Assembly: GCF_039724765.1 (NCBI RefSeq)
Contig: NZ_CP155730.1
Span: forward strand, 124,001-188,000
Direction: 5' to 3'
Length of the DNA stretch: 64,000 bases
Source: Sagittula stellata E-37
GTDB lineage: Bacteria > Pseudomonadota > Alphaproteobacteria > Rhodobacterales > Rhodobacteraceae
Position 1 is the first letter of the stretch. Every line of letters starts with the position of its first letter. A program made the position numbers and the translations under genes. Of this stretch, positions 37,797 through 57,200 are shown piece by piece. The notes beneath the pieces were generated by a model. That model saw only the letters and a list, made by a program, of their open reading frames with translations. It was not told the origin of the DNA and did not search any database.

Positions 37797-38273
37797 TCAG
37801 AGATCGTGGACGCGGATCTTCTTCAGCATCGCCTGCAAGACGCGGACGCAGACTTCCAGATCCGCAGGGTCGATGCCTTCGATCATATGCTGGTAGTTGC
37901 GGCTGACAACCGGAACCGTTTCCTTGAGCTTCTTTCGGCCCTTGGCTGTCAACGAAACGCGGCGCACACGCTGGTCCGCCGGGTCGATCTCGCGCTGCGC
38001 CAAGCCCTGGGTAACAAGCTGCTCGACCAGGCGGCTTACGGTGGATTGCTCGGTCACCGACAGTACGGAAACCTCGTTGACCGTGAGCTTTTTGTAGGCT
38101 GCGAGGCAGGACATGATCCGCATCGTGGCGCCCTGAATGCCGATATCCTTGAGATCGGCATCCTGCTTTACGTGCCACCGATGGACCAATCGGGTCATGA
38201 GATACGGCAAATACCGCGAAAGCTGCTGTGCCGACTTGAACGTGACTTCGGAGGAAACCGGGTTGTCAGTCAT
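37797..38273 (-). CDS. MarR-family regulator (second of pair)
   Basis: A 158-residue winged-helix protein: LTVNEVSVLSVTEQSTVSRLVEQL is the recognition helix region and DPADQRVRRVSLTAKGRK the beta wing. MarR dimers release DNA on binding aromatic acids. It overlaps the other MarR gene by 8 bp, and the pair follows the IorAB-thioesterase genes. It is a likely sensor for the aromatic substrate of the island. Confidence 0.88.
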   Translation of the reverse strand: MTDNPVSSEVTFKSAQQLSRYLPYLMTRLVHRWHVKQDADLKDIGIQGATMRIMSCLAAYKKLTVNEVSVLSVTEQSTVSRLVEQLVTQGLAQREIDPADQRVRRVSLTAKGRKKLKETVPVVSRNYQHMIEGIDPADLEVCVRVLQAMLKKIRVHDL

Positions 38274-38754
38274 TGGCCGGTATCCCCTTGTCCCTGGGCT
38301 TGCGAATAATGGCTTTCAAGACGCCGGTCGTTTCAGCCAGATCCTCAGCGTTCAAGTGGCGAAAGCACTCTGATAGCACGGCGGCATGCACCTTGGCCGC
38401 CTCTTCGAACCGCTGCTGTCCTGCATCCGTCAGAACGGCGACAAAGGATCGCCGGTCTTCAGCCGACATCGACCGATCGACAAGCCCGTCCTTGCGCAAC
38501 CTGTTGACCAGCCCCGAGACATTGCCGTTGCTGACCTTCAATCTTGCCGAGAGATCGCCCATGCTCAGGCCGTCGGGATAGCGTTTCAGCTGTGCGAGGA
38601 CATCGAATTTGGAAACGCTGATACCCGACCGCTCCTTGAGTTGCCGGTTCAGTTCGGGATAGACGAAATTATATGCGTCGAGCACGCTGAGCCAGAGCCG
38701 CGTTTCGTCCTTGCGATAGTCTGAAGTGTCCTGGGCAGGATCACGCACCGTCAT
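38266..38754 (-). CDS. MarR-family regulator (first of pair)
   Basis: A 162-residue protein with the MarR helix-turn-helix (MGDLSARLKVSNGNVSGLVNRL) and wing (SAEDRRSFVAVLTDAGQQRF). It differs clearly from its neighbour, so the pair is not a recent duplication. MarR pairs are known in bacterial auxin-degradation loci. An AT-rich site sharing a motif with other promoters of the island lies just upstream. Confidence 0.88.
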   Translation of the reverse strand: MTVRDPAQDTSDYRKDETRLWLSVLDAYNFVYPELNRQLKERSGISVSKFDVLAQLKRYPDGLSMGDLSARLKVSNGNVSGLVNRLRKDGLVDRSMSAEDRRSFVAVLTDAGQQRFEEAAKVHAAVLSECFRHLNAEDLAETTGVLKAIIRKPRDKGIPAND

Positions 38755-38771
38755 GGATCTATCTGCATTCC

Positions 38772-38793
38772 CATAGATTTACTGATTAGGTAT
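38772..38793. promoter_or_regulatory. Candidate MarR operator before the marR pair
   Basis: It contains ATAGATTTA-N4-TTAGGTA, which shares nine identical bases plus spacing with a site before iorA (43033). It overlaps the end of the thioesterase gene and lies within 40 bp of the marR start, as expected for autoregulation. Confidence 0.4.
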
Positions 38794-39268
38794 TATCCGA
38801 GAACAGATACTGGTTCAATGCACTCCGTAGGTCGGACGGAATGTCGATCGGGCGGTGCGTTTCGAGGTCGGTGGTCACGGTTGTAAAGAGCCCGCGCAGG
38901 GCCTCCATATCGCCCAGCATCGCGTTGAGCTCCAGCGCGTATGACTTGCCGCCGATCCTGGTAACCCGGACGAAATACTCGACCTCCTGCCCCATCTTGA
39001 TCGGCGAAAAGAACTCGGCGTGGGCATTGACGTAGCCAAGCCCGATGCGGCGCGGGCCAAGGAATTCGTAGTAGGACAGCTTCAGGCAGTCGCCGAACCA
39101 GGCTTCGATGGCACGGTTGAAGACGTTGAAGAACTGGGGCGTGTAGACAATACCCGCAGGATCGCACTCGCCGTGCCTGAATATATGTTTGTAGCTCCAA
39201 TTCGGAAACGGAATATCGGTCCGAATAACGGGGCGGGGAAAGGAGGCCGGTTTATTTGATTGGTTCAT
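38786..39268 (-). CDS. 4-hydroxybenzoyl-CoA-type acyl-CoA thioesterase
   Basis: A 160-residue hot-dog protein with the 4HBT active-site block FRHGECDPAGIVYTPQFFNVF, in which Asp attacks the thioester. The ATG at 39268 lies inside the end of iorB (17-bp overlap); an upstream in-frame TTG exists but is less likely. It is translationally coupled to IorAB, which makes an aryl-acyl-CoA from a 2-oxo acid, so it probably frees the carboxylic acid from that product. Confidence 0.88.
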   Translation of the reverse strand: MNQSNKPASFPRPVIRTDIPFPNWSYKHIFRHGECDPAGIVYTPQFFNVFNRAIEAWFGDCLKLSYYEFLGPRRIGLGYVNAHAEFFSPIKMGQEVEYFVRVTRIGGKSYALELNAMLGDMEALRGLFTTVTTDLETHRPIDIPSDLRSALNQYLFSDNT

Positions 39269-40832
39269 TTGCCCGAAAACTCTCAATTGTCCTGATAGTC
39301 CCGTCCAAATCCTCGCTGGACGCGTCCTTTATCGCAGAAGTCAAAAGGCGCCGCGCCCATTCCGCCGCGTCGTCGCGATCGGCGATAGACTTTGTCGTCT
39401 GCATGGCTTTCTCGAATTTCGAATGGCCCCGGACATGGGTATCCGAATAGCCCTTGATCAGCCGGCGGAAGGTGAGCATCGCGACGCCGAGGGCGTAGTT
39501 TCGAGGCAGCGCCTGGGTGGCATCGGCCAGCCAGGCGTCGCGGTGTGCGGCTTCCGTCTGGTGACGCAGGGACTTGCGCCGCAGCCCCTTGAGAGCGCCC
39601 GCAACATGCAGCGGCAGGAAGCCGGATAGACGGTACGTGCTGATCCGGCGACCTTTGTCGATGCGGCGGTCGAGCCAGTCATAGAGGCGCTTTCGAGACT
39701 TCAGCCAGTTTGCCAGACCGACCGGTAGGGTAGAGGCGACCTCTTCCATGCGGGGGTGCATGAATTCGGTGGTATGCAGCACCTGATCGTCCTTCAGGCC
39801 CACCTCGTCGGCCACCCGTTGACGGCGCGCGCTTTGCGTCTTGATCCGGGCGACGCGGATCACATCGTCATAGACCATCGCATTGGCGAGGTATTTCGTG
39901 GCAGTCGCGGTGAATTCGAAGCCATGGGCCTCGCCTCCGGCCGCGCGGTCGGCCCGGGTGAGATCGCTCAGGATATCGAGGTATTCGTCGCCATAGGCGG
40001 CATCCTGAAAATCGACGACCTTTTGGAGCCCGAGCCAGGCCATTTCATGTGCCTGTTCGGGAAGCTCAGAGCGCAGGCGCGCGAGCAGGGCGTTGGCCCG
40101 TTTGTCGCGCAGGGTGGCGGGCAGGGCGGCTTGCGTGGGGGCGGGCTCGGGCGCCCCGGCGGGCGGGCGGGTCTCGGTGCGCTCATGGGCGGCATCGAAG
40201 GCGCGGATGCTGGCCTCCACGCCCTTGCCGCCCTTGCGGATCACCTCGTAATAGGCCTCCCGTGGAAAGGGCAGGGTGCCCGAGGCCGCGAGGCTGCCGA
40301 ACATGGACGACGAGATGACAGAGCCGTTCGCCACCGCCATCGCGTTCATGTCGAAGACGATCTCCTGTTTGGCCACCACGCCGATGGCCTCGGTCACGGC
40401 GCCGCTGTCAGCGATGCTGTCGCCGGGGGCCATCTTTTCGCTCACCGCCAGCGCGCGGTGACTGGAGGCGATCAGGGTCGTGCGGTCCGGCGTCACGATC
40501 CCGCGCAGGATCGAGCGGCCGGCTTCCATGAACTCGGAGGCGATCACCACATCCACATCGCCGGGCGTGGGCATCTGCGCCAGCACGGGCTTTTGCCCAC
40601 CTTCGCCTGGACGCATCATCTCGACGTAGTAGATGGTGGCCCCGGTGCGTTGTGCCACGCCGGGGACCGATGTGGATTGCGCCACCCAGCCGTGCGCTTC
40701 GGCCAACGCCACGATCCAGCCGGTCAGGACTCCGCCGCCCTGGCCGCCCATTGCGACGATGGCGATGGAGATCGGCCGTTCGGTGGCGGGGCCGCCGGGC
40801 TTCAGGCCCAGTTTCACGGTGTCGTCTTTCAT
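39252..40832 (-). CDS. iorB: Indolepyruvate ferredoxin oxidoreductase, beta subunit, long form (DUF6537)
   Basis: A 526-residue protein. The first 200 residues are the gamma-type domain of 2-oxoacid:ferredoxin oxidoreductases (AIVAMGGQGGGVLTGWIV, STSVPGVAQRTGATIYY). The C-terminal 300 residues are the DUF6537 extension (TKYLANAMVYDDVIRVA, RISTYRLSGF). It forms the enzyme with IorA, which decarboxylates arylpyruvates or arylglyoxylates to acyl-CoA with reduced ferredoxin. It is 4 bp from iorA. Confidence 0.88.
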   Translation of the reverse strand: MKDDTVKLGLKPGGPATERPISIAIVAMGGQGGGVLTGWIVALAEAHGWVAQSTSVPGVAQRTGATIYYVEMMRPGEGGQKPVLAQMPTPGDVDVVIASEFMEAGRSILRGIVTPDRTTLIASSHRALAVSEKMAPGDSIADSGAVTEAIGVVAKQEIVFDMNAMAVANGSVISSSMFGSLAASGTLPFPREAYYEVIRKGGKGVEASIRAFDAAHERTETRPPAGAPEPAPTQAALPATLRDKRANALLARLRSELPEQAHEMAWLGLQKVVDFQDAAYGDEYLDILSDLTRADRAAGGEAHGFEFTATATKYLANAMVYDDVIRVARIKTQSARRQRVADEVGLKDDQVLHTTEFMHPRMEEVASTLPVGLANWLKSRKRLYDWLDRRIDKGRRISTYRLSGFLPLHVAGALKGLRRKSLRHQTEAAHRDAWLADATQALPRNYALGVAMLTFRRLIKGYSDTHVRGHSKFEKAMQTTKSIADRDDAAEWARRLLTSAIKDASSEDLDGTIRTIESFRANEPIK

Positions 40833-40836
40833 GCGC

Positions 40837-43002
40837 CTAGACCTCGAAACTGACTGCGCGCTTTTCGCGGCGGGTTTGCAGGAAGCGGATCACCGAACCG
40901 GAGAACCGAGCGCCGAACCTGTCCCATGCGCTGGGGTTGTGGGTGACTTCGGCACGGAAGAAGGAGGGGCAGAGCACGGCGGCATCCGCGACCTCGCCGC
41001 AATTGCCGCAGGCCACGCAGGTGTCGTCGATGGAGGCGACAGGGTCATCGCGTAGTGGATCGTCCAATTCCTTGACCGAGAGCGAGGGGCAGCCCGACAG
41101 ACGCATGCAGGCGTGATCGCCGGTGCAGACATCTTCATCGACGCCGAATTTCTCCTTCACCACCCGCTTGCCGCCCTTGATCGCCTTGGCGACCTGCGGC
41201 TTCACCCGGCGTTGCTTGTTCAGCATACATTCGGAGGAGGCCACGATGATCTTGGGGCCCTCGGCCTCGGTGGTCAGCGCCTCCTTCAGCACATCGCGCA
41301 TGCGGGTCACGTCATAAGTGTGATCGACCTGGCGAACCCATTTGGCACCGATCCCCTTCACCGCATCGACGATGGAATTGTTGGTGTTGCGGCGCTTGTT
41401 CTCGGCGCGGGACGACAGGATGTCCTGACCGCCGGTGGCGGAGGAATAGAAGTTGTCGACGATGACGAAGACGCCGTCGTGCTTGTTGAACACCGCATTG
41501 CCGATTCCGCTGGTCAGCCCGTTGTGCCAGAACCCGCCGTCGCCCATGATCGAGATCGACCGCTTTGCCCCCTTCACGTTGAAGGCCGCCGCCGAGGCGG
41601 GCCCGAGGCCGAAGCCCATGGTGGTGGCCCCGAGGTTGAAGGGCGGAAGGATCGAGAACAGGTGGCAGCCGATGTCGGCCGAAACGTGGTGCGTGCCGGT
41701 TTCCTCGAAGAGCATCTTCATCGCGGCAAAGATCGGGCGCTCGGGGCAGCCGGTGCACAGGCCCGGCGGGCGCGCCGGCACCACCTCGGACAGCCGCTCG
41801 ACGGCAGGGTTGGTCAGGATCGGGACCGGATCGGGCACCGGGGCGCGGTTGCCGAGCTGTGCGGGTTCATGGTCATCGAGGAAGCGGCCGATGCCCTCGG
41901 TCAGCACGGCGGCGGTGTAGTCGCCGCCCATCGGCAGGTAGTCCTTGCCATGCACCTCGGTCGGGCTCTTGGAGCGGGCGAGTATGGTGGAGATGGACTG
42001 CTCGATATACTCGGGCTGGCCCTCTTCGACCATCAGGACGGCATCGAGGCCTTCGCAGAACGCATCGACCTCGGATTTGATCGTGGGGTAGGCCACGTTC
42101 ATCACGTAAATCGGCACGCGGGAATTGCCGTAGGCGTCGCAAAGCCCAAGGAACTGAAGCGCGCGGATCGTGCTGTTATACATGCCGCCGACGACGATCA
42201 GCCCGGTCTTGCCGGTCTTTTCTTCCCCGGTCGGGCCGAAGAATTCGTTGAGCTTGTGGTCGCGGATGAAGTCGATGGCCGTGGGCATGCGCACCTTGAT
42301 CTTCTCGACCTCGTGCTCGTAGGCGGCGGGCGGAAGGACGATGCGGCCGAGATCGCGCTTGGGGTTGTCCATCGCCTCGCGCAGGGAGACCTTGGGGCGC
42401 TGGTTGTTTTTGCAGGCAAACTCGCCCGTCATGTGGCAGGAGCGGACCCGCACTTGCAGCATGACCGGCGTGTTGGAGGCCTCCGACAGCTCGAAGCCCT
42501 TTTCGATCAGGTTGACCATGCAGGCCTGATCCGGGCGCGGATCGAGGAGCCACATCTGCGACTTCATCGCGAAGGCATGGGTGCGCTCCTGCATGATCGA
42601 GGAGCCTTCGCCGTAGTCCTCGCCAACGATGACCATCGCCCCGCCGGTCACGCCGCCCGAAGCGAGGTTGGAGAGCGCATCGGAGGCCACGTTGGTGCCG
42701 ACCGTCGACTTCCACGCCACTGCGCCGCGCAGAGGGTACATGACGGAGGCCGACAGCATCGCGCCTGCCGTGGCCTCGCTGGCTGAGCTTTGGAAGACCA
42801 CGCCGAGATCGTCGAGGATGTCGTTGGCGTCGGCCAGCACATCCATCAGGTGAGAGATTGGCGAGCCCTGGTAGCCGCCGACATAAGCGACGCCGGATTG
42901 CAGAAGGGCCTTTGTGATCGCCAGAATCCCCTCGCCGCGGAACAGATCACCGTCGCCCAGCTTCAGGTCTTCTACCTCTTTCGCAAAGGATCGTTCGGCC
43001 AT
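40837..43002 (-). CDS. iorA: Indolepyruvate ferredoxin oxidoreductase, alpha subunit
   Basis: A 721-residue protein with an N-terminal alpha-type domain (YVGGYQGSPISHLMDVL), the CoA/TPP region (TGCPERPIFAAM, VSADIGCHLFS, IMGDGGFWHNGL), and at the C-terminus two Cys-rich iron-sulfur segments (CTGDHACMRLSGCPS and CVACGNCGEV...LCPS). It oxidatively decarboxylates aryl 2-oxo acids to aryl-acyl-CoA, passing electrons to ferredoxin. In this island isatinate, phenylglyoxylate-like or indolepyruvate substrates are candidates. It is divergent from the nitrilase operon. Confidence 0.9.
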   Translation of the reverse strand: MAERSFAKEVEDLKLGDGDLFRGEGILAITKALLQSGVAYVGGYQGSPISHLMDVLADANDILDDLGVVFQSSASEATAGAMLSASVMYPLRGAVAWKSTVGTNVASDALSNLASGGVTGGAMVIVGEDYGEGSSIMQERTHAFAMKSQMWLLDPRPDQACMVNLIEKGFELSEASNTPVMLQVRVRSCHMTGEFACKNNQRPKVSLREAMDNPKRDLGRIVLPPAAYEHEVEKIKVRMPTAIDFIRDHKLNEFFGPTGEEKTGKTGLIVVGGMYNSTIRALQFLGLCDAYGNSRVPIYVMNVAYPTIKSEVDAFCEGLDAVLMVEEGQPEYIEQSISTILARSKSPTEVHGKDYLPMGGDYTAAVLTEGIGRFLDDHEPAQLGNRAPVPDPVPILTNPAVERLSEVVPARPPGLCTGCPERPIFAAMKMLFEETGTHHVSADIGCHLFSILPPFNLGATTMGFGLGPASAAAFNVKGAKRSISIMGDGGFWHNGLTSGIGNAVFNKHDGVFVIVDNFYSSATGGQDILSSRAENKRRNTNNSIVDAVKGIGAKWVRQVDHTYDVTRMRDVLKEALTTEAEGPKIIVASSECMLNKQRRVKPQVAKAIKGGKRVVKEKFGVDEDVCTGDHACMRLSGCPSLSVKELDDPLRDDPVASIDDTCVACGNCGEVADAAVLCPSFFRAEVTHNPSAWDRFGARFSGSVIRFLQTRREKRAVSFEV

Positions 43003-43231: not shown

Positions 43232-44263
43232 ATGCTTCCATTGAATGATTTTCCAAGGTTCACGGCAGCAGCAGTTCAGGCAAGCCCCGTGTATCTGGAT
43301 GCCGGGCGGACCGTGGAAAAGGCGGCAAGCCTGATCGGTGAGGCGGCGGCGAATGGTGCGCGTCTGGTGGTGTTTCCGGAGGTCTTCATCCCCGGATACC
43401 CCTATTGGAACTGGATCACCGATCCGGTGACGGGCAGCGCGTGGTTTGAAGAGCTTGTCCGCGCGTCGGTCTTTGCCGACGGGCCGGAAATCGCCAGGGT
43501 GCGTGCCGCAGCCAAGGCGAATGATTGCTATGTGGTGATGGGCCTGAACGAACGCAGCCCCGTGTCGCTGGGCGCTTTGTACAATACCCTGTTGTTCATC
43601 GGACCCGATGGCGGGGTCCTCGGCAAGCACCGCAAGCTGGTGCCGACCTGGGCGGAGAAGCTGACCTGGACGGGCGGCGACGGGTCCAGCCTCAGGGTCT
43701 ACGATACCGCGATCGGCCCGCTGGGCGGTCTGGCATGTGGTGAGAACACCAACACCCTCGCCCGCTTCACTCTGCTGGCGCAGGGCGAGCTGGTGCATAC
43801 GGCCAGCTACATTTCGCTGCCGGTGGCCCCGCCCGATTACGACATGGCCGAGGCGATCAAGCTGCGAAGCATGTCGCACAGTTTCGAAGGCAAGGTCTTC
43901 ACGATCACCGCCACCTCGACGGTTTCGGATGAGATCATCACCGAGATGGAGAAGATCCGCCCCGATGCTCGGGCCCTGCTGGAGCGCAAGTCGAGCGCCT
44001 ATTCGGGGATCATCGGGCCTGATGGGCGCGAGGTGGTGCCCGGGCTGATCGACGACGAGGGCATCGTCTATGCCGAGATCGACTTGGGAAAATGCATTCA
44101 GCCCAAGCAGATGCATGACATCACCGGCTACTACAACCGCTTCGATATCTTCGACCTGAGGGTAAATCAGGCGCCGCAAGCCGCCGTTCAACTGAAAACC
44201 GATCCGGCCACCACGCCGGACGTAAACGCTGCGCCGATGCCGGACGACAGCGAGCAAGAGTAG
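43232..44263 (+). CDS. Nitrilase (arylacetonitrilase-like)
   Basis: A 343-residue protein with the full triad: Glu50 in VFPEVFIPGYPYWNW, Lys135 in HRKLVPTW, and Cys169 in GLACGENTN, the last typical of true nitrilases acting on aryl- or arylaliphatic nitriles. It would convert a nitrile such as indole-3-acetonitrile or phenylacetonitrile to the acid. It opens the plus-strand operon; GAGAGGGGGA sets the start. The C-terminal tail is extended and hydrophilic. Confidence 0.9.
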   Translation: MLPLNDFPRFTAAAVQASPVYLDAGRTVEKAASLIGEAAANGARLVVFPEVFIPGYPYWNWITDPVTGSAWFEELVRASVFADGPEIARVRAAAKANDCYVVMGLNERSPVSLGALYNTLLFIGPDGGVLGKHRKLVPTWAEKLTWTGGDGSSLRVYDTAIGPLGGLACGENTNTLARFTLLAQGELVHTASYISLPVAPPDYDMAEAIKLRSMSHSFEGKVFTITATSTVSDEIITEMEKIRPDARALLERKSSAYSGIIGPDGREVVPGLIDDEGIVYAEIDLGKCIQPKQMHDITGYYNRFDIFDLRVNQAPQAAVQLKTDPATTPDVNAAPMPDDSEQE

Positions 44264-44285
44264 CCAATCAAGGCAGGAGGAAGAC

Positions 44286-45404
44286 ATGGCTGATATTGCC
44301 AAGGAAGACGACATTCTGGGCCGCGCGCGAGTGCGCGATACGCCCGAGCTGGAAGCCTACTACGAAGATTTGGCCAAGCAGGAGACCGGCGCGCTCTGGA
44401 CCGTTGCCAACTCCATCGAACCCTGGCAGCCGACGCCCACATCCGCCCCCGTGCTCTGGCGCTGGGAAGACCTGCGCCCGCAGGTGCTGCGCGCCATCGA
44501 CCTGGTGCGCCCCGAGGATGCGGGCCGGCGCGTGGTCTACCTGCGCAACCCCAAGCGCAAGGAGGTCAGCGCGGCCTGCGGGTGGCTGTTCTCGGGCATC
44601 CAGACGATGAAGGCAGGCGAACGCGCCGGGGCGCACCGCCACGCGGCCTCGGCCTTGCGGTTCATCATGGAAGGCACCGGGGCCTACACGGTCGTCGAGG
44701 GGCACAAGATGAGCCTCGGCGCCAAGGACTTCGTACTGACGCCCAATGGCACCTGGCACGAGCACGGCATCGAGGAGGACGGCAGCACCTGTCTTTGGCA
44801 GGACGGGCTCGACATTCCGCTGACCAACGCGCTCGAGGCGAACTTTTACGAAGTCCACCCCGACGATTACCAGACCACCAACCTGCCGCTGGACGATAGC
44901 CCCGCCACCTACGGCTCACCGGCCCTGATGCCCGAGCTGGACAAGTGGGATCAGCCCTATTCGCCGCTGCTTAAGTTCCGTTGGGACCAGACTTACGAGG
45001 CGCTGCAAGCCTACGCCCGCGTCACCGATGGCTCGCCCTATGACGGGGTGATCATGCGCTATATCAACCCCAAGACCGGCGCCGACCCGATGCTGACCAT
45101 GGGCGCGAACATGCAGCTTTTGCGGGCGTCCGAGCACACCAAGGCACATCGCCACACCGGCAACATCATCTACCAGGTGGCCAAGGGCGAAGGCTATTCC
45201 GTGATCGGCGGCAAGCGCTTCGACTGGAAGGAAAAGGACATCTTCTGCGTGCCGCCGTGGACGTGGCACGAGCATTGCAACACCCAAGGCGGCGACGATG
45301 CCTGCCTGTTCTCGTTCCACGACCTGCCGACCATGAGAAAGCTCGGCTTCTACGCCGAGCAGGCTCTCGAGGACAACGGCGGCCATCAGGTCGTCACTGG
45401 CTAA
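44286..45404 (+). CDS. Bicupin ring-cleavage dioxygenase, gentisate 1,2-dioxygenase family
   Basis: A 372-residue protein with two cupin domains. The first has AHRHAAS and WHEHG (about residues 118 and 160). The second has AHRHTGN and WHEHCN. His ligands for Fe(II) are present in both. Family members cleave gentisate, salicylate or 1-hydroxy-2-naphthoate between adjacent carbons. The next genes, an FAH-type hydrolase and a maleate-isomerase-like protein, fit gentisate cleavage to maleylpyruvate. GGAGGA precedes the ATG. Confidence 0.88.
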   Translation: MADIAKEDDILGRARVRDTPELEAYYEDLAKQETGALWTVANSIEPWQPTPTSAPVLWRWEDLRPQVLRAIDLVRPEDAGRRVVYLRNPKRKEVSAACGWLFSGIQTMKAGERAGAHRHAASALRFIMEGTGAYTVVEGHKMSLGAKDFVLTPNGTWHEHGIEEDGSTCLWQDGLDIPLTNALEANFYEVHPDDYQTTNLPLDDSPATYGSPALMPELDKWDQPYSPLLKFRWDQTYEALQAYARVTDGSPYDGVIMRYINPKTGADPMLTMGANMQLLRASEHTKAHRHTGNIIYQVAKGEGYSVIGGKRFDWKEKDIFCVPPWTWHEHCNTQGGDDACLFSFHDLPTMRKLGFYAEQALEDNGGHQVVTG

Positions 45405-45420
45405 ATACAGGATATCAAAT

Positions 45421-46338: not shown

Positions 46339-46339
46339 C

Positions 46340-48876: not shown

Positions 48877-48878
48877 GA

Positions 48879-49400
48879 TCAGAACCCTATATCAGACGTG
48901 GTTTTGTGGTCGGATTGCCCCGCCCGCCGAAAGCGGTAGAGGAACTCGATGGCGAGCATGACGAACGAGACCGTGAAGACGGCGAGGACAATCCAGTTGG
49001 GGACTTGCAGGTCCTTGTCGGGCAGCGATCCGAAGGCATAGGCGCTGAGCGTGCCGTTGGCGCCAAAGTAGGCCATGCAGAAGCACAGCAGCGCACCGAA
49101 CAGATCCACCGCGCGCTCGACCTTCCTTGCCGCCCATTTCGGAAGCGCCGTCAGAAGGATGTCGACCCGCACATGGGCGCCCTTGTAAAGGACCCAGGAG
49201 GCCGAGAGGAACACGCCCGCGTAGAGGCCGTATTCCGCGCCTTCGTTCAGCCATTCCAGCCCGCGCAGGCCAAGCTTGCGCGAGAAGAAATCGAACGGGA
49301 CGAGCACCGCAAACAGCCCGATGGAACCGGCTACACAGATGGCGACAAAGAGATTGAACTTTTCGAAGAGGATTTCGAATCTGTCGATGAGCGAGGCCAT
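48879..49400 (-). CDS. TRAP transporter small permease (DctQ), second system
   Basis: A 173-residue protein with four membrane segments and the DctQ motif HVRVDILLTALPKWA. The start at MASLIDRFEILFEKF (49400) is supported by conserved family length; the longer frame upstream is not. It lies between dctP and dctM on one transcript. Confidence 0.88.
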   Translation of the reverse strand: MASLIDRFEILFEKFNLFVAICVAGSIGLFAVLVPFDFFSRKLGLRGLEWLNEGAEYGLYAGVFLSASWVLYKGAHVRVDILLTALPKWAARKVERAVDLFGALLCFCMAYFGANGTLSAYAFGSLPDKDLQVPNWIVLAVFTVSFVMLAIEFLYRFRRAGQSDHKTTSDIGF

Positions 49401-49480
49401 GAACGTCTCCGGCTCGTGTTGAAGGCGCAGCCGGCAAACCGCCGCGCGGACGGTCTGCCGGATTTCAGGATCGGATTGGC

Positions 49481-50479
49481 TCAGTCGGCGGCTGTGAAGA
49501 GCTCTTTCAGCTTCGGCCCGGTTTCGGGGTTCTGCTCGATGAACTCGTCCCAGGCGGTTTGACGCGCCATGCCGACCCATTTCTCGGCTTCCTCGCCCTC
49601 GAGCGTGATGGTCTCGATGCCGCTTTCCGCAAGCTTCTTGAAGGTTTCCTCGTCCAGCTGCTTTGCGTAGTCGCTGGTGCCCTCCATGCGCGTCTCCATG
49701 CCGATCACCACGTCATTGAGGATTGCGCGGGCCTCGTCGCTCAGGGAGTTCCACTTGTTCAGATTGGCGACCGTGTGGATCGAGGCGCGATAGACGCCGG
49801 GCTCTACCCGATACTTGGTGACCGGGATCCACGACGGAGAGATGCCGCGCACCGACCAGCCGTAACCGTCCACCGCGCCGCTTTCCATCAGCGTGTAGAC
49901 CTCGGGCATTGAAGAGCGCTGAACCGTCGCGCCGAGGGCCTTGAAGAAGGCGGTGTAGACGGGCGAAACCCGCAGGTTGAGGCCGGTCAGGTCGGCTTTG
50001 TCGATGGCCTTGCCTTCAGCGAGGAACAGATTGAATGCGCCATCGTCGTGGTGGCGGCCAACGAACTTGACGTTCTTCTTGTCGGCAATCTCTTGAAAAT
50101 AGTCTATGCCGCCGTTTTCGCGCAGCTCGGCAAAGGTCACCTCCTGAAGCCGAAGTGCCGGGGCTTCGGGGATGATGTTACCGAAGAAGGCTTCGGGGCA
50201 ACCGGCGATGTCATAGGCCCCCTGGGCCATACGCTCCACGACCTGAAACGGGCTGCCAATGGCGGGCGCGCCGCCCAGCAGATTGATCTGAACGACACCT
50301 TTGCCCTTTTCGTTGATCTCGCTTACCATTTCTTCGAAGGGCACGCCCGGAGGGGCGCCGATCGGAAAGCAGCTCACGCCGCGCAGCGTGACTTCTTCGG
50401 CGGCCAATGGTGTGGCAAGGCAGGCGCCCGTCGCGATGGCTGCGGCGAAGCCTTTCAAGAATGCGTTTCTGGTCATCAT
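49481..50479 (-). CDS. TRAP transporter substrate-binding protein (DctP), second system
   Basis: About 332 residues with a signal peptide (FLKGFAAAIATGACLATPLAAE) and the DctP ligand block (LTGLNLRVSPVYTAFFKALG, with the conserved Arg, then YTLMESGAVDGYGW). The start could be either of two ATGs after a GTG; the one at 50479 has the best spacing to GGGAG. The position inside the island suggests an aromatic or aryl-alkyl carboxylate as solute. Confidence 0.88.
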   Translation of the reverse strand: MMTRNAFLKGFAAAIATGACLATPLAAEEVTLRGVSCFPIGAPPGVPFEEMVSEINEKGKGVVQINLLGGAPAIGSPFQVVERMAQGAYDIAGCPEAFFGNIIPEAPALRLQEVTFAELRENGGIDYFQEIADKKNVKFVGRHHDDGAFNLFLAEGKAIDKADLTGLNLRVSPVYTAFFKALGATVQRSSMPEVYTLMESGAVDGYGWSVRGISPSWIPVTKYRVEPGVYRASIHTVANLNKWNSLSDEARAILNDVVIGMETRMEGTSDYAKQLDEETFKKLAESGIETITLEGEEAEKWVGMARQTAWDEFIEQNPETGPKLKELFTAAD

Positions 50480-50624
50480 CACTTTGTCTCCCTTTGGATG
50501 AGATCTTGAAGGGCCGATAGCGCTGCCGTTGTCTTTTTGAGCCTGAAACCAAGCTGTCCCGACGCGGCCTTTTTCATGTTCTTCTTGCGATTCCTTCTAT
50601 GCCAGTAAGGACGGATCGAATGTA

Positions 50625-51524: not shown

Positions 51525-52298
51525 TTACAGCCCCTTGGGATGGGTCAGGAACTCTTCGATCACCTCCGGCGGCGCCTTCACGAAGTCTCCGGTGCGGCTG
51601 ACCGACTGGCCGTTGAGCTGCTTCAGGCTGACGGCCATTTCCGCCATCTTCAGCGCGATGGGGATGCCGTTGATCACCGGGGCATCGCCAACGGTGTGAT
51701 TGTGAAACTGCGAGAACAGCACCATCGGGATGCCGCCGCCCGGGATGACTACGTCGATACCCTGCGCCACCAGAGGCTCGGCCTGCGCGTCGAACAGCGC
51801 CTTCACCTCCTGAGCCTTGGCCGCGTCGCCATAGGCGCCAAGGATCTGACCCGGCTCGAAGTGCATCGCATGTACGCCCGTGACCCGTTCGCGCAGACCA
51901 TATTTGCCGATCTGCTGATGAAACCAGGGGATGAACCGGCGATTGATCGTGACGATCCCTAGCCGCTGGCCCATCTGGCAACACCAGAGCATCGTCGCTT
52001 CGCCCAGACTAATCACCGGAATGTCGACGACACTGCGCGCCTCGTACAACCCGGCATCCTGGAAATGCCCGACCAGAACGGCGTCATAGCCCTCGCGCTC
52101 TGCCTTGATCGCATTGGCGATCATCTCGCGGGCGCAGCGGAATTCGACAAGCGGGTGCGCGTAGCTGTCGAAGGGGGTGATGCCGTGAATTTCGACGGTC
52201 GTCCCCGGAGACTTTGCCGCGTCCAGATTTTCCCGCAGGTGCTCCCAATAGGTGGCGCCGTTTTCGTGATCGACATAGCTTTGATAGAAGATCTTCAT
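51525..52298 (-). CDS. Asp/Glu/hydantoin racemase-like protein lacking both catalytic cysteines
   Basis: A 257-residue protein of the racemase fold: MKIFYQSYVDHENGATYWEHL, LVGHFQDAGLYEARSVVDIP and VISLGEATMLWCCQMGQRLG. In hydantoin racemases the first catalytic Cys lies in CFGDPGL; here it is His (HFQDAGL). The second lies in GCAGM; here it is PGGGIP. A two-cysteine racemase mechanism is therefore not possible, and another reaction (hydrolase, decarboxylase, lyase) or a binding role is likely. It is last in the ligase operon, 90 bp after the cyclase. Confidence 0.78.
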   Translation of the reverse strand: MKIFYQSYVDHENGATYWEHLRENLDAAKSPGTTVEIHGITPFDSYAHPLVEFRCAREMIANAIKAEREGYDAVLVGHFQDAGLYEARSVVDIPVISLGEATMLWCCQMGQRLGIVTINRRFIPWFHQQIGKYGLRERVTGVHAMHFEPGQILGAYGDAAKAQEVKALFDAQAEPLVAQGIDVVIPGGGIPMVLFSQFHNHTVGDAPVINGIPIALKMAEMAVSLKQLNGQSVSRTGDFVKAPPEVIEEFLTHPKGL

Positions 52299-52388
52299 GT
52301 CAGCTGTTCCTTTTCAAATCGCGCAGGTCACGTCGTCAGGCCGCCAAAGCTGGTGCCGCCGCAGTTCCCCCGGTGATCGCCGACTTCG

Positions 52389-53180
52389 TCATCCGCGTGT
52401 GTCTTGCACCAGGGCGACCACGCGCAGTGGGCTGCCGGAGCCGCCTTCAATCTTGAGCGGGCAGGCGACGATCATCGCGCCGAAGGTCGGCAGCTTGTCG
52501 AGGTTGGTCAGGCATTGCAGACCGAACCGGCCGTTGCCGTGCAAAATCGAATGGGCGGGCAGCGGCGGGTTGAAGGCGAAAGCCTGTCCGGCGTCTGTAC
52601 CCACCGTCTCGACCGCGAGGCCCACACAGTCGCGTTCGTGGACGAGGAATTCGACAGCTGCCGCGTCGGGCCCCGGAGAATGGGCACCGTCTTCGAGCAG
52701 GTTCAGATATTCCGGCGTTCCGACGCGCTTGTACCAGTCGGTGCGCAGGGCGATCCAATGGCCCTTGGGGATGGTGCCGTTTTCCGCCTCCCAGGCCTCA
52801 AGGAAGGCGCGGGTGAGCACGAAGTCGGCATCCGCCGCTGCCTCGGCCGAGATGTCGATCACAACTGCGGGGGCGACGAACCGCTGCGCCGGGATGGCAT
52901 CCACAGTGTTTGAAGGCAGGTCCTTGCCCGTCACCCAATGCGCCGGGGCGTCGAAATGGGTACCGGTGTGCTCGTTCATAGAGATGTTGTTCCAGTACCA
53001 GGCCGGGCCGTTCTCGTCGTAGCGCGACAGGGTCTCCATCTTGAACGGGGGGCATTGGCCGAACTCGGCAGGCAGCACGATGACCGGAAAATCCGGGCTC
53101 AGGGTGTTGGTCAGATCGACGACGCGCACATCGCCCGAGGCGAGCGCCACGGCAAGGTCTGAAAGCACGGTATTGCTCAT
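52389..53180 (-). CDS. Cyclase family metal hydrolase (isatin hydrolase / kynurenine formamidase-like)
   Basis: A 263-residue protein with the family metal motif HTGTHFDAPAHW (about residues 72-83), RVVDLTNTLSPDFPV near the start, and KGHWIALRTDWYKRV. Members hydrolyse cyclic or formyl amides with Mn or Zn; isatin hydrolase opens isatin to isatinate. It overlaps the DUF35-SDR gene by 4 bp (ATGA), so it is coupled to the acyl-CoA steps. Isatin is a reasonable but unproven substrate. Confidence 0.85.
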   Translation of the reverse strand: MSNTVLSDLAVALASGDVRVVDLTNTLSPDFPVIVLPAEFGQCPPFKMETLSRYDENGPAWYWNNISMNEHTGTHFDAPAHWVTGKDLPSNTVDAIPAQRFVAPAVVIDISAEAAADADFVLTRAFLEAWEAENGTIPKGHWIALRTDWYKRVGTPEYLNLLEDGAHSPGPDAAAVEFLVHERDCVGLAVETVGTDAGQAFAFNPPLPAHSILHGNGRFGLQCLTNLDKLPTFGAMIVACPLKIEGGSGSPLRVVALVQDTRG

Positions 53181-54415
53181 CTGTTTTCCTCTCGAATGGT
53201 CAGAAGCGGGTCGTCCAGCCAGCGCGACAGGACATCTTTCGCCACCTCGTCGGCGCAGATGGTTTCCTGCCCTTGCTGCAAGGCGGTGACGACGGCGCGG
53301 GCGATCTGTGCGGGCGCGGTCTTGGGCGGCGGCACGTTCTGGTGCCAGCCGTCGTCGACCGGCCCGGTCAGGACCGACATCACGCGGATGCCGGTCTGCG
53401 CCATCTCTCCCCGGAGGCTCGCAAGGAGCGTCAGCCGCGCGGCGGCCGCAGCCGAGGTTCCGGCAAAGCCCGCCCTCCCGGTCAGGCCGTGGACGGATGC
53501 GATATCGACGAAGGCGGCGGCAGAGCATTCGACATCGTCGGACCGCGCAGAGAGCGCCGGGGCAAAGCCCTGAGCCAGTCGCATGAGGCCGGTCACTTCG
53601 AGATCCAGCCCGGAGTGCAGGTCGCTGGGCTTGCCGCCAAAGCCGACGCCGCCCGGGCGGGCAAAGCCGACGGTGTTGACGACGATCTCCACCCGCCCGC
53701 CGAGCTGCCCGGCAAGCGTCTCGACGCTGCGGGTGTCGGTGAGGTTCAGCTTCACGGGCTCGATCCCGTCCATGGCCTCGATCCGCTCTTGCCCCGGATA
53801 GCGCATCAGCGGGTCGGCATTGCCAAGGAACACCGTCCGGGCGCCAGCCTTGAGCAGGGCCTCGGCCACCGCCTGTCCGGTCGCGGTGCGCCCGTCGGTG
53901 ACGAGGATGCGCCGATATTTCGGGTCGGCGGTGAAGACCCGCAGTTGTGGATCGTCGGCCATATGCGGCGTCTCCTGTTCCGGCATGGCAAAAAGCGCCG
54001 GGGTTCCGGCCCTGTCGAGCTTCAGAGCGATCCTGACGCGGTCGCCCCGGCCCACATCGCGGTGCAGGTGAACGGTCGCCATCGGCCCCGCATCCAGCCG
54101 CGCGGCCCCGATGCGCCAGGGCAGGTGATGCTTGAAGAAGAGGTCGATCGAGCTGCGGATGGTCGTCTCCGCTTCGATCACCGCGCCGTCTGGCCGGTCT
54201 TTCCAGCTCAGCTCGCCCCAGCAGGCCGGGCACCGGTCGCGCTGGGGGTAGGTCGCCTGACCGCAGTCGCTACAGACCTGCAGCACGAACCGTCCCAGAC
54301 CGGCGCGCGCCGCCATTGCCGTGGCTGCTCGGCTGCGCAGGGCAGGGGGCACATGGCCAGCGCGGGTGACGACAAGCGGATCTTTTTTCTTCGGCGGTGT
54401 CAGCGGATCGGTCAT
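53177..54415 (-). CDS. DUF35 (zinc ribbon + OB fold) fused to a degenerate SDR domain
   Basis: A 412-residue fusion. Residues about 40-150 are a DUF35 unit: rubredoxin-like CSDCG...CPAC zinc ribbon, then an OB fold (AETTIRSSI, GPMATVHLHRDVGRGDRVRIAL). From about residue 165 a Rossmann SDR-like domain follows (RRILVTDGRTATGQAVAEAL), but YxxxK reads FAGTS and the glycine loop is altered, so it is probably not an active dehydrogenase. DUF35 proteins are obligate partners of thiolase-like enzymes such as Ltp2; the thiolase gene is directly upstream with a 4-bp overlap. Confidence 0.8.
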   Translation of the reverse strand: MTDPLTPPKKKDPLVVTRAGHVPPALRSRAATAMAARAGLGRFVLQVCSDCGQATYPQRDRCPACWGELSWKDRPDGAVIEAETTIRSSIDLFFKHHLPWRIGAARLDAGPMATVHLHRDVGRGDRVRIALKLDRAGTPALFAMPEQETPHMADDPQLRVFTADPKYRRILVTDGRTATGQAVAEALLKAGARTVFLGNADPLMRYPGQERIEAMDGIEPVKLNLTDTRSVETLAGQLGGRVEIVVNTVGFARPGGVGFGGKPSDLHSGLDLEVTGLMRLAQGFAPALSARSDDVECSAAAFVDIASVHGLTGRAGFAGTSAAAAARLTLLASLRGEMAQTGIRVMSVLTGPVDDGWHQNVPPPKTAPAQIARAVVTALQQGQETICADEVAKDVLSRWLDDPLLTIREENR

Positions 54416-55587
54416 CGCAGCACCTCCTGCTCCAGCGCGGCAGCCCCGGTACAGACGCCGCGATCGTAGTTCACCAGGCCAAAGCCCGAGATCAGGGCGC
54501 GTCTGGCCTCGGGCACCTGTTCACCCAGAGGCTCGTGCAGGATCTGGCGCAGACCTTCGGTGAGGTTCTGAAAGCCGCCCGCCGCCCCGGCCTGACCGGC
54601 AGATAGCTGCCCGCCATTGGTGTTGAGCGGCAGCGTGCCGGCGATGGTAAAGTCGGTCTCGGCGATGAATCGCGACAGGGCCGCCTTGTCGCAGAACCCA
54701 AGATCCGCAAGCTGCATGGCCACGATCACCGGGTAATCGTCATAGACCTGCACCGTGTCGATTTCTTGCGGGCCGAACCCTGAGGCGGACCAGAGATGGT
54801 CGATGTCGCGGGCCCAGCCTCCCCGCACCTGAACCGGATCTTCGGCAAATGCATTGTGCCGCTCGATCGTCGCGGCAACCCGCGCGGTGGAGAGGCCCAG
54901 CTCTTCGGCCTTTTCCGGCGTTGTCACGATGAATGCCTCGGCCCCGGCGCACGGCATGACGCAATCGAACAGGTGGATCGGGTCCGCGATGGGGCGGGCC
55001 TCCATATATTGCGCGTGGGTCAGCGGCTTTTTCATCAATGCCAGCGGGTTGGAGAGCGCATTGCTGCGTTGCGCGACACAGAGCTTGGCGAAGTCCTCGC
55101 GCGTCACCCCGTAGGCCTGCATGAAGTGATCGGCGATTAGCGCGAAGGTCGCGTTGGGGCCGCCAAAGCCATAGGGGTATGTCGCATCCTGCGAAAAGCG
55201 CGAAAAGCCCTGCAAGGTCTGGCGGAAGCTGTCGATCTGGTTGGTGTCGGCGGCGACGCAGGCCACCACCTCGGCATCGCCCGCCTGGACAGCACGGGCC
55301 GCGCGCCGCAGGGCCATGACGCCGCTCGCGCCCCCTGTGGGAATGTGATCCATCCAGCGCGGGCTAAGCCCCAGATGCTGGACCATACCGACGACCGTTT
55401 CCGGCCCGGCCGAGAAGCTGGCAAAGCAGAAGCCGTCGAAGTCCGTCGGCCCCAGACCGGTCCGGCGCGACAGGGCCTTGAGGGCACCGCCAGTCCACCA
55501 ATGCGCGGTCTTTTCGGAAAACCGAACATACGGAACGGTGACCGGGGCACAGACGGCAACGCCGTCATAGGGTTTTTGCCTGCCCAT
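54412..55587 (-). CDS. Thiolase-superfamily protein without the usual Cys/His residues (Ltp2-like)
   Basis: A 391-residue protein with thiolase architecture. The nucleophile region reads IPTGGASGVMALRRAA, with no Cys. The GHPxG block reads LSAGQAGAAGGFQ, with Gln for His. YDDYPVIVAMQLADLG holds paired Tyr residues where thiolases have the NEAF/HDAF loop. Together with the adjacent DUF35 protein this points to an Ltp2-type acyl-CoA retro-aldolase rather than a beta-ketothiolase. Its start overlaps the ligase stop by one base (TGATG). Confidence 0.82.
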   Translation of the reverse strand: MGRQKPYDGVAVCAPVTVPYVRFSEKTAHWWTGGALKALSRRTGLGPTDFDGFCFASFSAGPETVVGMVQHLGLSPRWMDHIPTGGASGVMALRRAARAVQAGDAEVVACVAADTNQIDSFRQTLQGFSRFSQDATYPYGFGGPNATFALIADHFMQAYGVTREDFAKLCVAQRSNALSNPLALMKKPLTHAQYMEARPIADPIHLFDCVMPCAGAEAFIVTTPEKAEELGLSTARVAATIERHNAFAEDPVQVRGGWARDIDHLWSASGFGPQEIDTVQVYDDYPVIVAMQLADLGFCDKAALSRFIAETDFTIAGTLPLNTNGGQLSAGQAGAAGGFQNLTEGLRQILHEPLGEQVPEARRALISGFGLVNYDRGVCTGAAALEQEVLR

Positions 55588-57200
55588 CAGGTCTTGCGCT
55601 TCTTCAGGTGCCGGGTGTCGATGAAACCATCCGCTTCGAAGGTCTTCACCAGGAGATCTTTCAACTGACCCCTTAGGATCTTCTGCGTGGCGGTCAGCGG
55701 CAGCGCATCGACGAAGGCGATCCAGCCCGGGGCCTTGTAATAGGCCATCTGGTCCAGCGCCCAGTTGACGATCTCTTCTGCCTTGGCACGGTTCCCCTTT
55801 GCGCCGTCGAGGATGACAAAGGCGGCCACTTCGTCGCCCCGCACGTCGTCGGGGGCGGCGGCCGCTGCGCAAGAGGCGATCTCGGGGTGGCGGCCAAGGA
55901 TCGATTCAACCTCCACCGCCGAGATGTTCTCGCCCGAGCGGCGGATCACGTTCTTCTTGCGGTCGACGAAGTGCAGCGCGCCGTCCTCATCCTGCTGGAC
56001 CACGTCGCCGGTGTGCAGCCATCCGCCCTGCCAGAGCGCGTCGGTGGCCTCCTGGTTCTTCAGATAGCCCGAGAAGAAGCCGTAGCGGGAATTGTCCCCG
56101 GCGCGCCGCACAAGCATTTCGCCACGAGAGCCCGGCGGGACGTCCTGGCCCGTGTCATCGACAACGCGCACCTCCACCTCGGCGGAAGGCCTGCCAAAGC
56201 AGGCGGTTCCGATCTTGCGAGGCTCTTCATTGGCGCAGATGACGCCGCCCGACCCGGTCTCGGTGCACGCCCATGCCTCGATCAGCGGAAAGCCGTAGCG
56301 CTCTTCGAAGGGCGCATGCAGCTTGGGTTCCACGCCCGCGCCAAAGCCGAAGCGGACGCTGTGGTTGCGGTCTTCCTCGGAGGGCTCGGCCCGCATCAGC
56401 ATGGGCGGCATGACGCCAAGGTAATGCACCACAGTCGCGCCGCTGTCACGGACCGAGGCCCACCAGCTGCGTGGGTGGAAGCGGTCGAGCAGGATCAGGC
56501 AGCCGCCCACCGTGATCATCGCCATCACCGAGACAGCCATCGCATTCATGTGAAAGACGGGCAGGGGGGTGAGCATCCGCTCGCCAGACCGTCGCAGGCT
56601 GATGTGGCCCCCGGCCTCGGCGTACCAGTCACCGGAATAGAGGTAGTACTCGTTGGAAAGGATGCAGCCCTTGGGCTTGCCTGTGGTGCCCGACGTGTAG
56701 AGCAGGGCGCATTCGGTCTGCGTGTCCGGCTGCGCGTCAGCCGTTGCGGGGCGTATCGCCTGCGGCAGAGGCCCGTCCGGCGTTGTGACAAGGGTGCGAA
56801 GACCGGTTTTTTTCACGGCGGCCTCCATTTCGTCGAGCCGGGAAGGCAGGACGATGGCCAGGATCATTTCGGAGTGTTCGGCCAGATACTCCAGCTCGGC
56901 CAGCCGCAGATCGGGATTGATCGGCACCACCGAAGCGCCGAGGGCGTTCAGCGCCAGCCAGATCTCCAGAAAGACCGGGCGGTTTTCAAGCAGCAGACCG
57001 ACGCGATGACCTGTGCCATATCCGGCCCCGGCAAGGCGTTCGCGCCAACGCTCCACCCGGTCCGCCATATCGGCGTAGCTGATTTCACCCGGCGGGATGT
57101 CATATGCCTTTGCGGTCTCATCCAGCACATGCAGGAAGGCTGCATCACCCTGCCGTGCGACCGTCTGGCTGAATCGGGTGAAGATCGTTTCGGTGTTCAT
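55587..57200 (-). CDS. AMP-forming acyl-CoA ligase
   Basis: A 537-residue ANL-family enzyme: LLYTSGTTGKPKGCILSN (P-loop), LPVFHMNAMAVSVMA, EAWACTETGSGG, WLHTGDVVQQDEDG, and DRKKNVIRRSGENISAVEVE, with the catalytic Lys near LTATQKILRGQLK. It activates a carboxylic acid to the CoA thioester. It is first in the coupled operon with the thiolase-like, DUF35-SDR and cyclase genes; an aryl- or indole-acetate derivative is the likely substrate. Confidence 0.92.
   Translation of the reverse strand: MNTETIFTRFSQTVARQGDAAFLHVLDETAKAYDIPPGEISYADMADRVERWRERLAGAGYGTGHRVGLLLENRPVFLEIWLALNALGASVVPINPDLRLAELEYLAEHSEMILAIVLPSRLDEMEAAVKKTGLRTLVTTPDGPLPQAIRPATADAQPDTQTECALLYTSGTTGKPKGCILSNEYYLYSGDWYAEAGGHISLRRSGERMLTPLPVFHMNAMAVSVMAMITVGGCLILLDRFHPRSWWASVRDSGATVVHYLGVMPPMLMRAEPSEEDRNHSVRFGFGAGVEPKLHAPFEERYGFPLIEAWACTETGSGGVICANEEPRKIGTACFGRPSAEVEVRVVDDTGQDVPPGSRGEMLVRRAGDNSRYGFFSGYLKNQEATDALWQGGWLHTGDVVQQDEDGALHFVDRKKNVIRRSGENISAVEVESILGRHPEIASCAAAAAPDDVRGDEVAAFVILDGAKGNRAKAEEIVNWALDQMAYYKAPGWIAFVDALPLTATQKILRGQLKDLLVKTFEADGFIDTRHLKKRKT

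Follow-up and report, generated by a model that had tools for sequence, protein, structure and literature searches.

This analysis concerns a 64,000-nucleotide stretch of the Sagittula stellata E-37 genome (contig NZ_CP155730.1, positions 124,001 to 188,000; here called the window, its first letter being position 1), and in particular a block of genes at 37797..57200 that we read as an auxin degradation locus of the iad type with a lower pathway attached. Every family that an initial annotation, made from the letters of the window, had named in this block is indeed there: two MarR regulators, a 4HBT thioesterase, IorB, IorA, a nitrilase-family protein, a cyclase, a fusion of DUF35 with a short-chain dehydrogenase/reductase (SDR), a Cys-less thiolase and an AMP-forming ligase. 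The block further holds genes of which that annotation had made no use: those for a bicupin, for FAH hydrolase and maleate cis-trans isomerase enzymes, for a TRAP transporter and for proteins of the Asp/Glu-racemase and SnoaL families (Table 1). The iad genes and those of the lower operon described below are intact open frames; the source genome beyond the window was sampled rather than annotated.

The block had been taken for a new catabolic island, a view that does not survive comparison by tblastn with 24 genes of the iad locus on a plasmid of Sulfitobacter sp. THAF37. Seventeen of the 24 find a window match at 74-96% identity with their arrangement conserved, a resemblance far above chance, and the seven without an orthologue are IadC, IadD, IadE, IadJ and a second ligase/thiolase/OB-fold set, the latter set and IadJ meeting paralogues only (28-56%). 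The ligase, thiolase, SDR and cyclase are orthologous to those of known iad loci, and IorA/IorB (IadA/IadB) are present. Judged by its gene products, the ligase-to-IorAB set constitutes the CoA/isatin half of iad auxin degradation, a known pathway, and is no new island; iad membership of this upper half, taken by itself, appears to us almost certain. Because the IadDE Rieske oxygenase is lacking, what the window holds is an iad variant rather than a complete iad locus. In Variovorax, as described in excerpts of PMC12633357, indole-3-acetate (IAA) is converted via dioxindole-3-acetate (DOAA) to anthranilate by an IadCDE Rieske oxygenase, IadF ligase, IadG thiolase, IadH dehydrogenase, kynurenine-formamidase-like IadI and IadJ dehydrogenase, and IorA/IorB together with two MarR regulators have been assigned to iad loci (PMC9613470, excerpts). 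The intermediates published for this pathway (excerpts of PMC9613470 and PMC12633357) are dioxindole, isatin, isatinic acid and anthranilate. From the list of accessions and the solution history given in the excerpted PMC9613470 we infer that 7KYM, the best structural match of the first MarR regulator, is IadR of B. japonicum; fragmentary iad-like clusters are also known in Sphingomonas (PMC11630574). The window thus shares the ligase, thiolase, SDR, isatin-hydrolase-family cyclase, IorAB and both MarR genes with the iad loci of Variovorax, Bradyrhizobium and Ruegeria, but is without IadCDE and IadJ and adds a nitrilase-cupin-FAH-isomerase operon (as does R. pomeroyi) and an upstream amine-oxidase block.

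The order of reactions first suggested for this half, from ligase through retro-aldol cleavage by the Cys-less thiolase with DUF35 to isatin and isatinate and on to IorAB and the thioesterase, is chemically sound and corresponds to the known iad gene set, the cyclase being closely homologous to solved isatin hydrolase structures. GGASG stands in the thiolase where 7PXP has CSAG and 7YVY has CASG, which removes the nucleophilic Cys, and YDDY stands in place of HDAF in both; these residues are invariant in 14/14 aligned homologues. Among its nearest structures are the lipid-transfer proteins 9MYR and 6OK1, the latter presumably an Ltp2-type protein. A Cys-less thiolase with a DUF35 partner is what the Ltp2/ChsH2 steroid side-chain retro-aldolase (6OK1) also has, so that by sequence the Ltp2 type is present and the corresponding activity is predicted; unlike in that system, DUF35 is here fused to an SDR, and the relatives sit with ligase and isatin hydrolase genes. 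IorA falls short of the curated IOR alpha model TIGR03336 (270.4 vs 650.9 bits), and a POR_N search for it gave no match in the genome at E 0.001.

The upper half is ordinary, an iad-type set that lacks the oxygenase; the interest lies in the lower half. Nitrilase (hereafter CN hydrolase), cupin, FAH and isomerase genes form one tight run on the + strand (43232-47104), the last being homologous to maleate cis-trans isomerases and retaining both Cys residues. In Caballeronia sp. SBC1 a single string reads IorA, IorB, thioesterase, 5-hydroxylase, cupin, FAH, CN hydrolase, isomerase, MarR and cyclase, the 5-hydroxylase being a 'bifunctional salicylyl-CoA 5-hydroxylase/oxidoreductase' (NF006101, 1333 bits, cut-off 1078); as far as predicted products tell, this is the gene set expected for a route from isatin to fumarate. 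Two genomes, each from a different family (L105, L107), repeat the order of its first nine genes, with MarR co-oriented with the string in both and IorA matched over about half its length in L105; the cyclase was not found in the 20 kb at either. In Alcaligenaceae all 8/8 loci that reach the cupin have one gene order: the end of a 5-hydroxylase gene, then cupin, FAH, nitrilase, isatin hydrolase, IadD, IadE, ligase, thiolase and IadJ. The 5-hydroxylase, truncated where each locus stops, is homologous to salicylyl-CoA-5-hydroxylase/2-aminobenzoyl-CoA-monooxygenase; the ninth locus, L075, is a piece of 6.9 kb that spans IadD-IadJ only. The R. pomeroyi DSS-3 locus reads MarR-MarR-thioesterase-IorB-IorA, then aldehyde dehydrogenase-aminotransferase-nitrilase-cupin-FAH-isomerase-Tct and, starting some 14 kb beyond the isomerase, IadJ-cyclase-DUF35SDR-thiolase-ligase-IadEDC, and this strain is listed among those degrading IAA (PMC9613470, excerpts). 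Inspection by eye of 36-40 kb in this locus (L092) revealed no evident MarR gene adjacent to iadC. Around 80 thiolase loci, taken from 111 relatives with flanks of at most 10 kb, which makes the counts lower bounds, the thiolases are 58-88% identical to that of the window and have the ligase alongside in 76/80 and isatin hydrolase in 74/80; the cupin (>=55%) is near in 16/80, FAH in 16/80, nitrilase in 11/80 and IorA in 30/80.

We propose an iad-type auxin island that is extended by amine-oxidation genes at its upper end and by a lower pathway, and give the lower route a probability of roughly 0.6. An aryl-ethylamine (tryptamine) would be oxidised via its aldehyde to IAA by the amine oxidase and aldehyde dehydrogenase at 26.5-31 kb, and on contig C3 an iac-like set, IacA/IacE, might take over from IadCDE/IadJ in turning IAA into DOAA. 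Going by the chemistry of the families and by what is published on the iad pathway, the ligase would make dioxindoleacetyl-CoA and the thiolase with its DUF35-SDR partner would free acetyl-CoA and isatin; strong homology would have isatin hydrolase convert isatin to isatinate, and IorAB may take isatinate to anthraniloyl-CoA and CO2. The remaining steps are suggested by gene order, co-occurrence and chemistry: a salicylyl-CoA-5-hydroxylase-type enzyme on C3 would give 5-hydroxyanthraniloyl-CoA, the thioesterase 5-hydroxyanthranilate, the two-site cupin maleamylpyruvate, FAH maleamate plus pyruvate, the 'nitrilase', acting as an amidase, maleate and NH3, and the isomerase fumarate. Anthranilate, the end point previously assumed, would then not be the end, since cupin, FAH and isomerase carry the route further. 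The salicylyl-CoA to gentisate route of Streptomyces (SdgACD) similarly combines 5-hydroxylation of a CoA thioester with a subsequent gentisate-type cupin, whereas the route proposed here has an amino rather than a hydroxy substrate and adds an amidase and a maleate isomerase. The lower nicotinate pathway (NicD/F/E) runs from maleamate through maleate to fumarate, the same logic with a 4FQ7-type maleate isomerase, but our amidase would be a CN hydrolase and our ring opener a bicupin. When NADH is limiting, the monooxygenase/reductase has been described as forming 5-hydroxyanthraniloyl-CoA (PMC3534580, excerpts).

Table 1. Features of the window in order of position, with the matches on which their names are based (percentages are identities)
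Feature	Position	Strand	Evidence
Tyramine oxidase subunit B family (OCD fold), probable aryl-ethylamine (tryptamine) oxidation	26517..27692	+	NF004848 676.8 bits, cut-off 362
RidA-family protein	27731..28153	+	71-80% copies in 20/80 thiolase loci; name from Shinella 'Rid family hydrolase' annotation at matching place
FAD-dependent amine oxidase (DAO family)	28197..29489	+	PF01266; 66-77% copies in 20/80 thiolase loci
Aldehyde dehydrogenase	29243..31039 (putative ORF start; homology from ~29.58 kb)	+	PF00171; StyD model 612 bits, under cut-off 850
Probable AraC-type regulator	31030..32169	-	72% identical in Shinella, named from Shinella annotation
ABC transporter: substrate-binding protein, permeases, ATPase	32230..37729	+	conserved with Shinella iad plasmid, 66-81%; names from Shinella
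MarR regulator 1, IadR-like	37797..38273	-	best PDB 7KYM, 144 bits; 85% to THAF37
MarR regulator 2	38266..38754	-	3BOQ 157 bits; 74% to THAF37
4HBT_2 thioesterase, proposed (5-hydroxy)anthraniloyl-CoA thioesterase	38786..39286 (probable start 39268)	-	PF13279; 78% to THAF37
IorB / IadB (DUF6537)	39252..40832	-	NF006179 674 bits, cut-off 348
IorA / IadA, TPP enzyme	40837..43002	-	TIGR03336 270.4 bits, under cut-off 650.9; 94% to THAF37
CN hydrolase ('nitrilase'), proposed maleamate amidase	43232..44263	+	PF00795; CGENTN at catalytic Cys
Bicupin ring-cleavage dioxygenase, proposed 5-hydroxyanthranilate 1,2-dioxygenase	44286..45404	+	3BU7 736 bits; six ligand positions all His
FAH-family acylpyruvate hydrolase	45421..46338	+	PF01557 242 bits
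Maleate cis-trans isomerase	46340..47104	+	4FQ7 346 bits; both Cys present
TRAP transporter DctM	47401..48876	-	PF06808; 92% to THAF37
TRAP transporter DctQ	48879..49580 (probable start 49400)	-	PF04290; 80% to THAF37
TRAP substrate-binding protein DctP	49481..50482	-	PF03480; 87% to THAF37
Asp/Glu racemase-family protein	51525..52298	-	PF01177; 89% to THAF37
Isatin hydrolase (IadI-like)	52389..53180	-	5NNB 356 bits over 254 residues
DUF35/ChsH2-SDR fusion (IadH-like)	53177..54415	-	PF12172; PF00106; PF01796 24.5 bits, under cut-off 27.1
Cys-less thiolase-like retro-aldolase (IadG-like)	54412..55587	-	family match, motif alignment
AMP-forming acyl-CoA ligase (IadF-like)	55587..57200 (ORF open to 57308)	-	PF00501; 84% to THAF37 from 57200

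That the window has no oxygenase for the first hydroxylation, as the initial annotation stated, holds for IadC, IadD and IadE, which find no match in it (tblastn, E 1e-3), flavin hydroxylases not having been scanned over every window ORF; IadJ meets only SDR matches of 28-30% at 11-19 kb (tblastn). A PF00848 search of the genome finds two Rieske alpha subunits, each of them on contig C3 (no genome-wide search covered other oxygenase families), and an IadD match is absent from the genome at E 1e-110. Neither subunit qualifies as IadD: that at C3:136061 is of the 3VCA/4QUP type, and that at C3:58408 matches 7YLS/8H2T, which we take to be IadD, only partially (116 bits) and belongs to an iac-like cluster. 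This cluster comprises an amidase, an acyl-CoA-dehydrogenase-type monooxygenase, a small IacB-sized protein, Rieske alpha and beta subunits, an SDR, a reductase and a TRAP transporter; the names from the IacA-H series (candidate IacA/B/C/D/E/F/H) were assigned by gene order and family and presumably apply. The advice to search the genome for an oxygenase was rewarded with a candidate replacement for IadCDE/IadJ, albeit of the IacA rather than the IadDE type. The set resembles the iac locus of P. putida 1290 type but lies outside the window, and the enzymes after DOAA differ. Two neighbourhoods on C3 may be mentioned here. C3:34001-46000 (L091) carries kynureninase, thioesterase, RidA, a benzoate-CoA-ligase-type ligase, acyl-CoA dehydrogenase, enoyl-CoA hydratase, SDR and a 2-aminobenzoyl-CoA monooxygenase homologue, read (some names by eye) as a kynurenine/anthranilate CoA cluster near the iac-like one; at C3:66001-80000 (L004), paa-type phenylacetate genes and an intradiol dioxygenase/maleylacetate-reductase-like pair, named by eye from translations, adjoin the iac-like region.

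Without IadCDE and IadJ, the iad half could be a decaying remnant, or could serve external isatin, oxIAA or other indoles while IAA goes to catechol via the C3 cluster; we regard this as possible but rather doubtful, and since it is compatible with the lower route the odds of the two overlap. Among 295 family genomes (about one per genus; the co-occurrence statistics drawn from them ignore shared ancestry and genome size) IadG occurs in 27 and IadD in 25, all 25 with IadG, so that the source genome and one other have IadG without IadD; the iac-like set on C3 fits a remnant as well. The frames are intact, however, and the combination exists elsewhere: in Neorhizobium sp. SOG26, IacA, IacB and IacE homologues (55-65%) lie within 8 kb of the iad thiolase, DUF35-SDR and isatin hydrolase, homologues of IacC/D/F not being found in that 21 kb stretch. 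This is the only one of the 80 thiolase loci with an IacA homologue at >=40%. An iac-type Pseudomonas, moreover, formed DOAA, isatin, isatinate and anthranilate (PMC8383072, excerpts).

The cupin is the enzyme on which a second alternative turns. It has three metal ligands in each of its two cupins (HHHHHH), as has 3BU7, which we take to be the R. pomeroyi cupin enzyme, and it scores below the models for gentisate 1,2-dioxygenase (TIGR02272, 289.4 vs 442.1 bits) and 5-aminosalicylate 1,2-dioxygenase (NF049978, 278.5 vs 650 bits). Matches in a phylum sample (398 genomes, of which 51 have a match) form two separate groups, 12 at 61-100% identity (the window's own included) and 51 at <=39%, with nothing in between. 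Both metal-ligand sets are kept in 54/54 sequences of the window's clade (51 HHHHHH, 3 HHHHEH) as against 0/20 classical gentisate dioxygenases, these controls being 20 of the 51 classical-clade matches. We compared neighbours within about 10 kb at 31 loci of the clade, to which the phylum sample contributed 11 and the family sample 20 (own genome, G653 and G553 left out; four loci shorter than 17 kb). A CN hydrolase of either subfamily is found in 18/31 but in 0/20 classical loci (p=1e-5), the window's subfamily accounting for 8 and the other for 10; IorA, a close 5-hydroxylase or a close CoA ligase is found in 9/31 vs 0/20 (p=0.008). For the latter count any IorA, a 5-hydroxylase at >=50% or the L091 CoA ligase at >=70% was accepted, that ligase being named 2-aminobenzoate-CoA ligase by context (best model benzoate-CoA ligase family, 351 bits, under the cut-off of 375); some queries came from the clade loci themselves, the second CN hydrolase from L102 and the flavin reductase mentioned below from L099. 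A distant 5-hydroxylase relative (37-39%) occurs in 6/20 classical loci, as a salicylyl-CoA/gentisate route would have.

Were the amine lost from anthranilate before ring cleavage, the cupin could be an ordinary gentisate 1,2-dioxygenase forming maleylpyruvate, FAH would release maleate and pyruvate and the isomerase fumarate, these two enzymes sufficing, and the CN hydrolase would have another role. The R. pomeroyi cupin, a clade member 81% identical to that of the window, has in fact been published as a gentisate dioxygenase (going by reference titles and citing papers), an enzyme with two ferrous centres in S. pomeroyi (PMC10306065, excerpts), and Alcaligenes has been reported to make gentisate from indole/IAA via isatin and anthranilate (excerpts of PMC6221969 and PMC8383072). 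Against this stand the second metal-ligand set, the score under the gentisate cut-off, the CN hydrolase that accompanies the clade and the lack of any obvious deaminase gene in the Caballeronia string, and we consider the gentisate explanation unlikely. A second cupin match in the genome, at C2:105842-106780, 17 kb outside the window, is 36% identical and has an in-frame TGA. At L102, L108 and L144 a clade cupin lies with a flavin reductase, an acyl-CoA-dehydrogenase-type protein and a 350-aa protein, whose copies in L102 and L144 have no Pfam match; this arrangement possibly belongs to a different N-aromatic pathway.

A third explanation sees in the nitrilase-cupin-FAH-isomerase operon an independent aromatic-acid pathway that happens to lie beside an iad remnant. 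It can point to the opposite strand of the operon, to Leisingera, which has the operon without annotated iad genes in 31 kb, and to 10/24 cupin-clade family genomes from which the thiolase is absent. Yet among the 295 family genomes the iad thiolase (27) and the cupin clade (24) occur together in 14 where 2.2 are expected (p=8e-11), or in 13 vs 2.0 when the own genome is excluded (p=5e-10); for cupin and IacA the figures are 1 vs 1.0. The two genes share a contig at a distance of at most 25 kb in only 3/14, so that the association needs more than close linkage to explain it, although most assemblies are fragmentary. Together with the gene strings shared in Alcaligenaceae and Caballeronia, this makes an independent operon quite improbable to our minds.

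The preferred lower route assigns the CN hydrolase an amidase function, and its context suggests that it is a maleamate amidase: it shares an operon with ring-cleavage and C4-acid genes, in Caballeronia it is placed between FAH and maleate isomerase, and an amino substrate, unlike gentisate, requires an amidase. CGENTN surrounds the catalytic Cys in 26/26 module CN hydrolases of >=59% identity (one 34% match, L059, with a CWEH motif is left out of this count); the second subfamily has CWENYM in those copies where the motif was read, the pattern search being misplaced in two. The entry of arylacetonitriles through this enzyme, which the initial annotation had in mind and which the CN-hydrolase fold would allow, is very improbable given its operon position, its CGENTN where the other nitrilases examined have CWE, and its score under the Nit6803 model (TIGR04048, 211.8 vs 502.6 bits).

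Several observations weigh against the proposed route, in addition to the gentisate reports and the cupin genomes without thiolase given above. Anthraniloyl-CoA genes lie within about 10 kb in just 9/31 cupin-clade loci, with none in 22/31, and a flavin reductase homologue (>=50%) is present in 17/31, instead or as well and in some with an acyl-CoA-dehydrogenase-type gene, so that the clade may act on more than one substrate. The nine-gene iadC-K2 region of Variovorax yields anthranilate (PMC12633357, excerpts), hence IorAB (IadAB) may be dispensable for its formation; upstream of IadI the same excerpts report C8H7NO2, the formula of dioxindole, and not isatin, which a retro-aldol step would yield directly. 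IacA is found in 12/295 family genomes (one just 36% identical) and coincides with IadG only in the source genome, 1 vs 1.1 expected, which speaks neither for nor against the pairing, and the iac-like cluster on C3 may degrade IAA alone. The sole close 5-hydroxylase homologue of the genome is likewise on C3 (50-55%; 1303 bits, cut-off 1078), beside kynureninase and a benzoate-CoA-ligase-type protein, and the classical product of such a kynureninase cluster is not 5-hydroxyanthraniloyl-CoA.

Upstream of the MarR genes, the iad unit seems to extend to the amine-oxidase genes. The first of these passes the tyramine oxidase subunit B model with a wide excess over its cut-off (Table 1) and has copies 71-80% identical in 20/80 thiolase loci and in Shinella; aldehyde dehydrogenase copies (>=45%) are found in 19/80, and the oxidase subunits and the dehydrogenase jointly in 16/80, mostly Sphingomonadales, and in Shinella. 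In our reading this block and the R. pomeroyi-type aminotransferase/aldehyde dehydrogenase/Tct block may both be feeders from aryl-ethylamine to arylacetate; the nearest match in the source genome to the block adjoining the R. pomeroyi operon is on C3. The racemase-family gene at 51525-52298 is a conserved neighbour of isatin hydrolase in iad loci, with identities of 89% in THAF37, 79% in Ruegeria ANG-R and 41-43% in nine further loci. On the ligase side, where relatives carry IadCDE, the window has a TctA(B) and TctC tricarboxylate-type transporter (58405-61752), whose TctA shares just 30% identity with its counterpart in the R. pomeroyi locus. In THAF37 the second ligase/thiolase/OB-fold set lies inside the iad locus (NZ_CP045377.1, 82-89 kb), its thiolase being 56% identical to the window thiolase and 68% to that of Neorhizobium SOG26.

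In the open-access literature, most subscription journals being outside the search, we found no description of a 5-hydroxyanthranilate/maleamate branch of auxin degradation and no report of 5-hydroxyanthranilate ring cleavage; the words 'gentisate', 'nitrilase' and 'cupin' are absent from the main text of PMC12633357 and PMC11630574, and 'gentisate' from PMC9613470. That bacteria mineralise auxin via this cleavage, with anthraniloyl-CoA from IorAB, 5-hydroxylation, a thioesterase, a two-site bicupin, a CN-hydrolase maleamate amidase and maleate isomerase, is a generalisation to which we give somewhat better than even odds. The iad pathway is described in that literature as ending at anthranilate, and for the branch from anthranilate to 'gentisate', proposed in 1983 in an Alcaligenes strain, no functional gene had been revealed according to a 2018 review (PMC6221969, excerpts). 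If true, the route would supply genes for this branch: the gene strings point to candidates for the lower half in its entirety, and they hint at what a cupin of known structure (3BU7), a CN-hydrolase subfamily and IorAB may do. The source genome, in turn, suggests that the entry oxygenases of the iac and iad pathways may be interchangeable.

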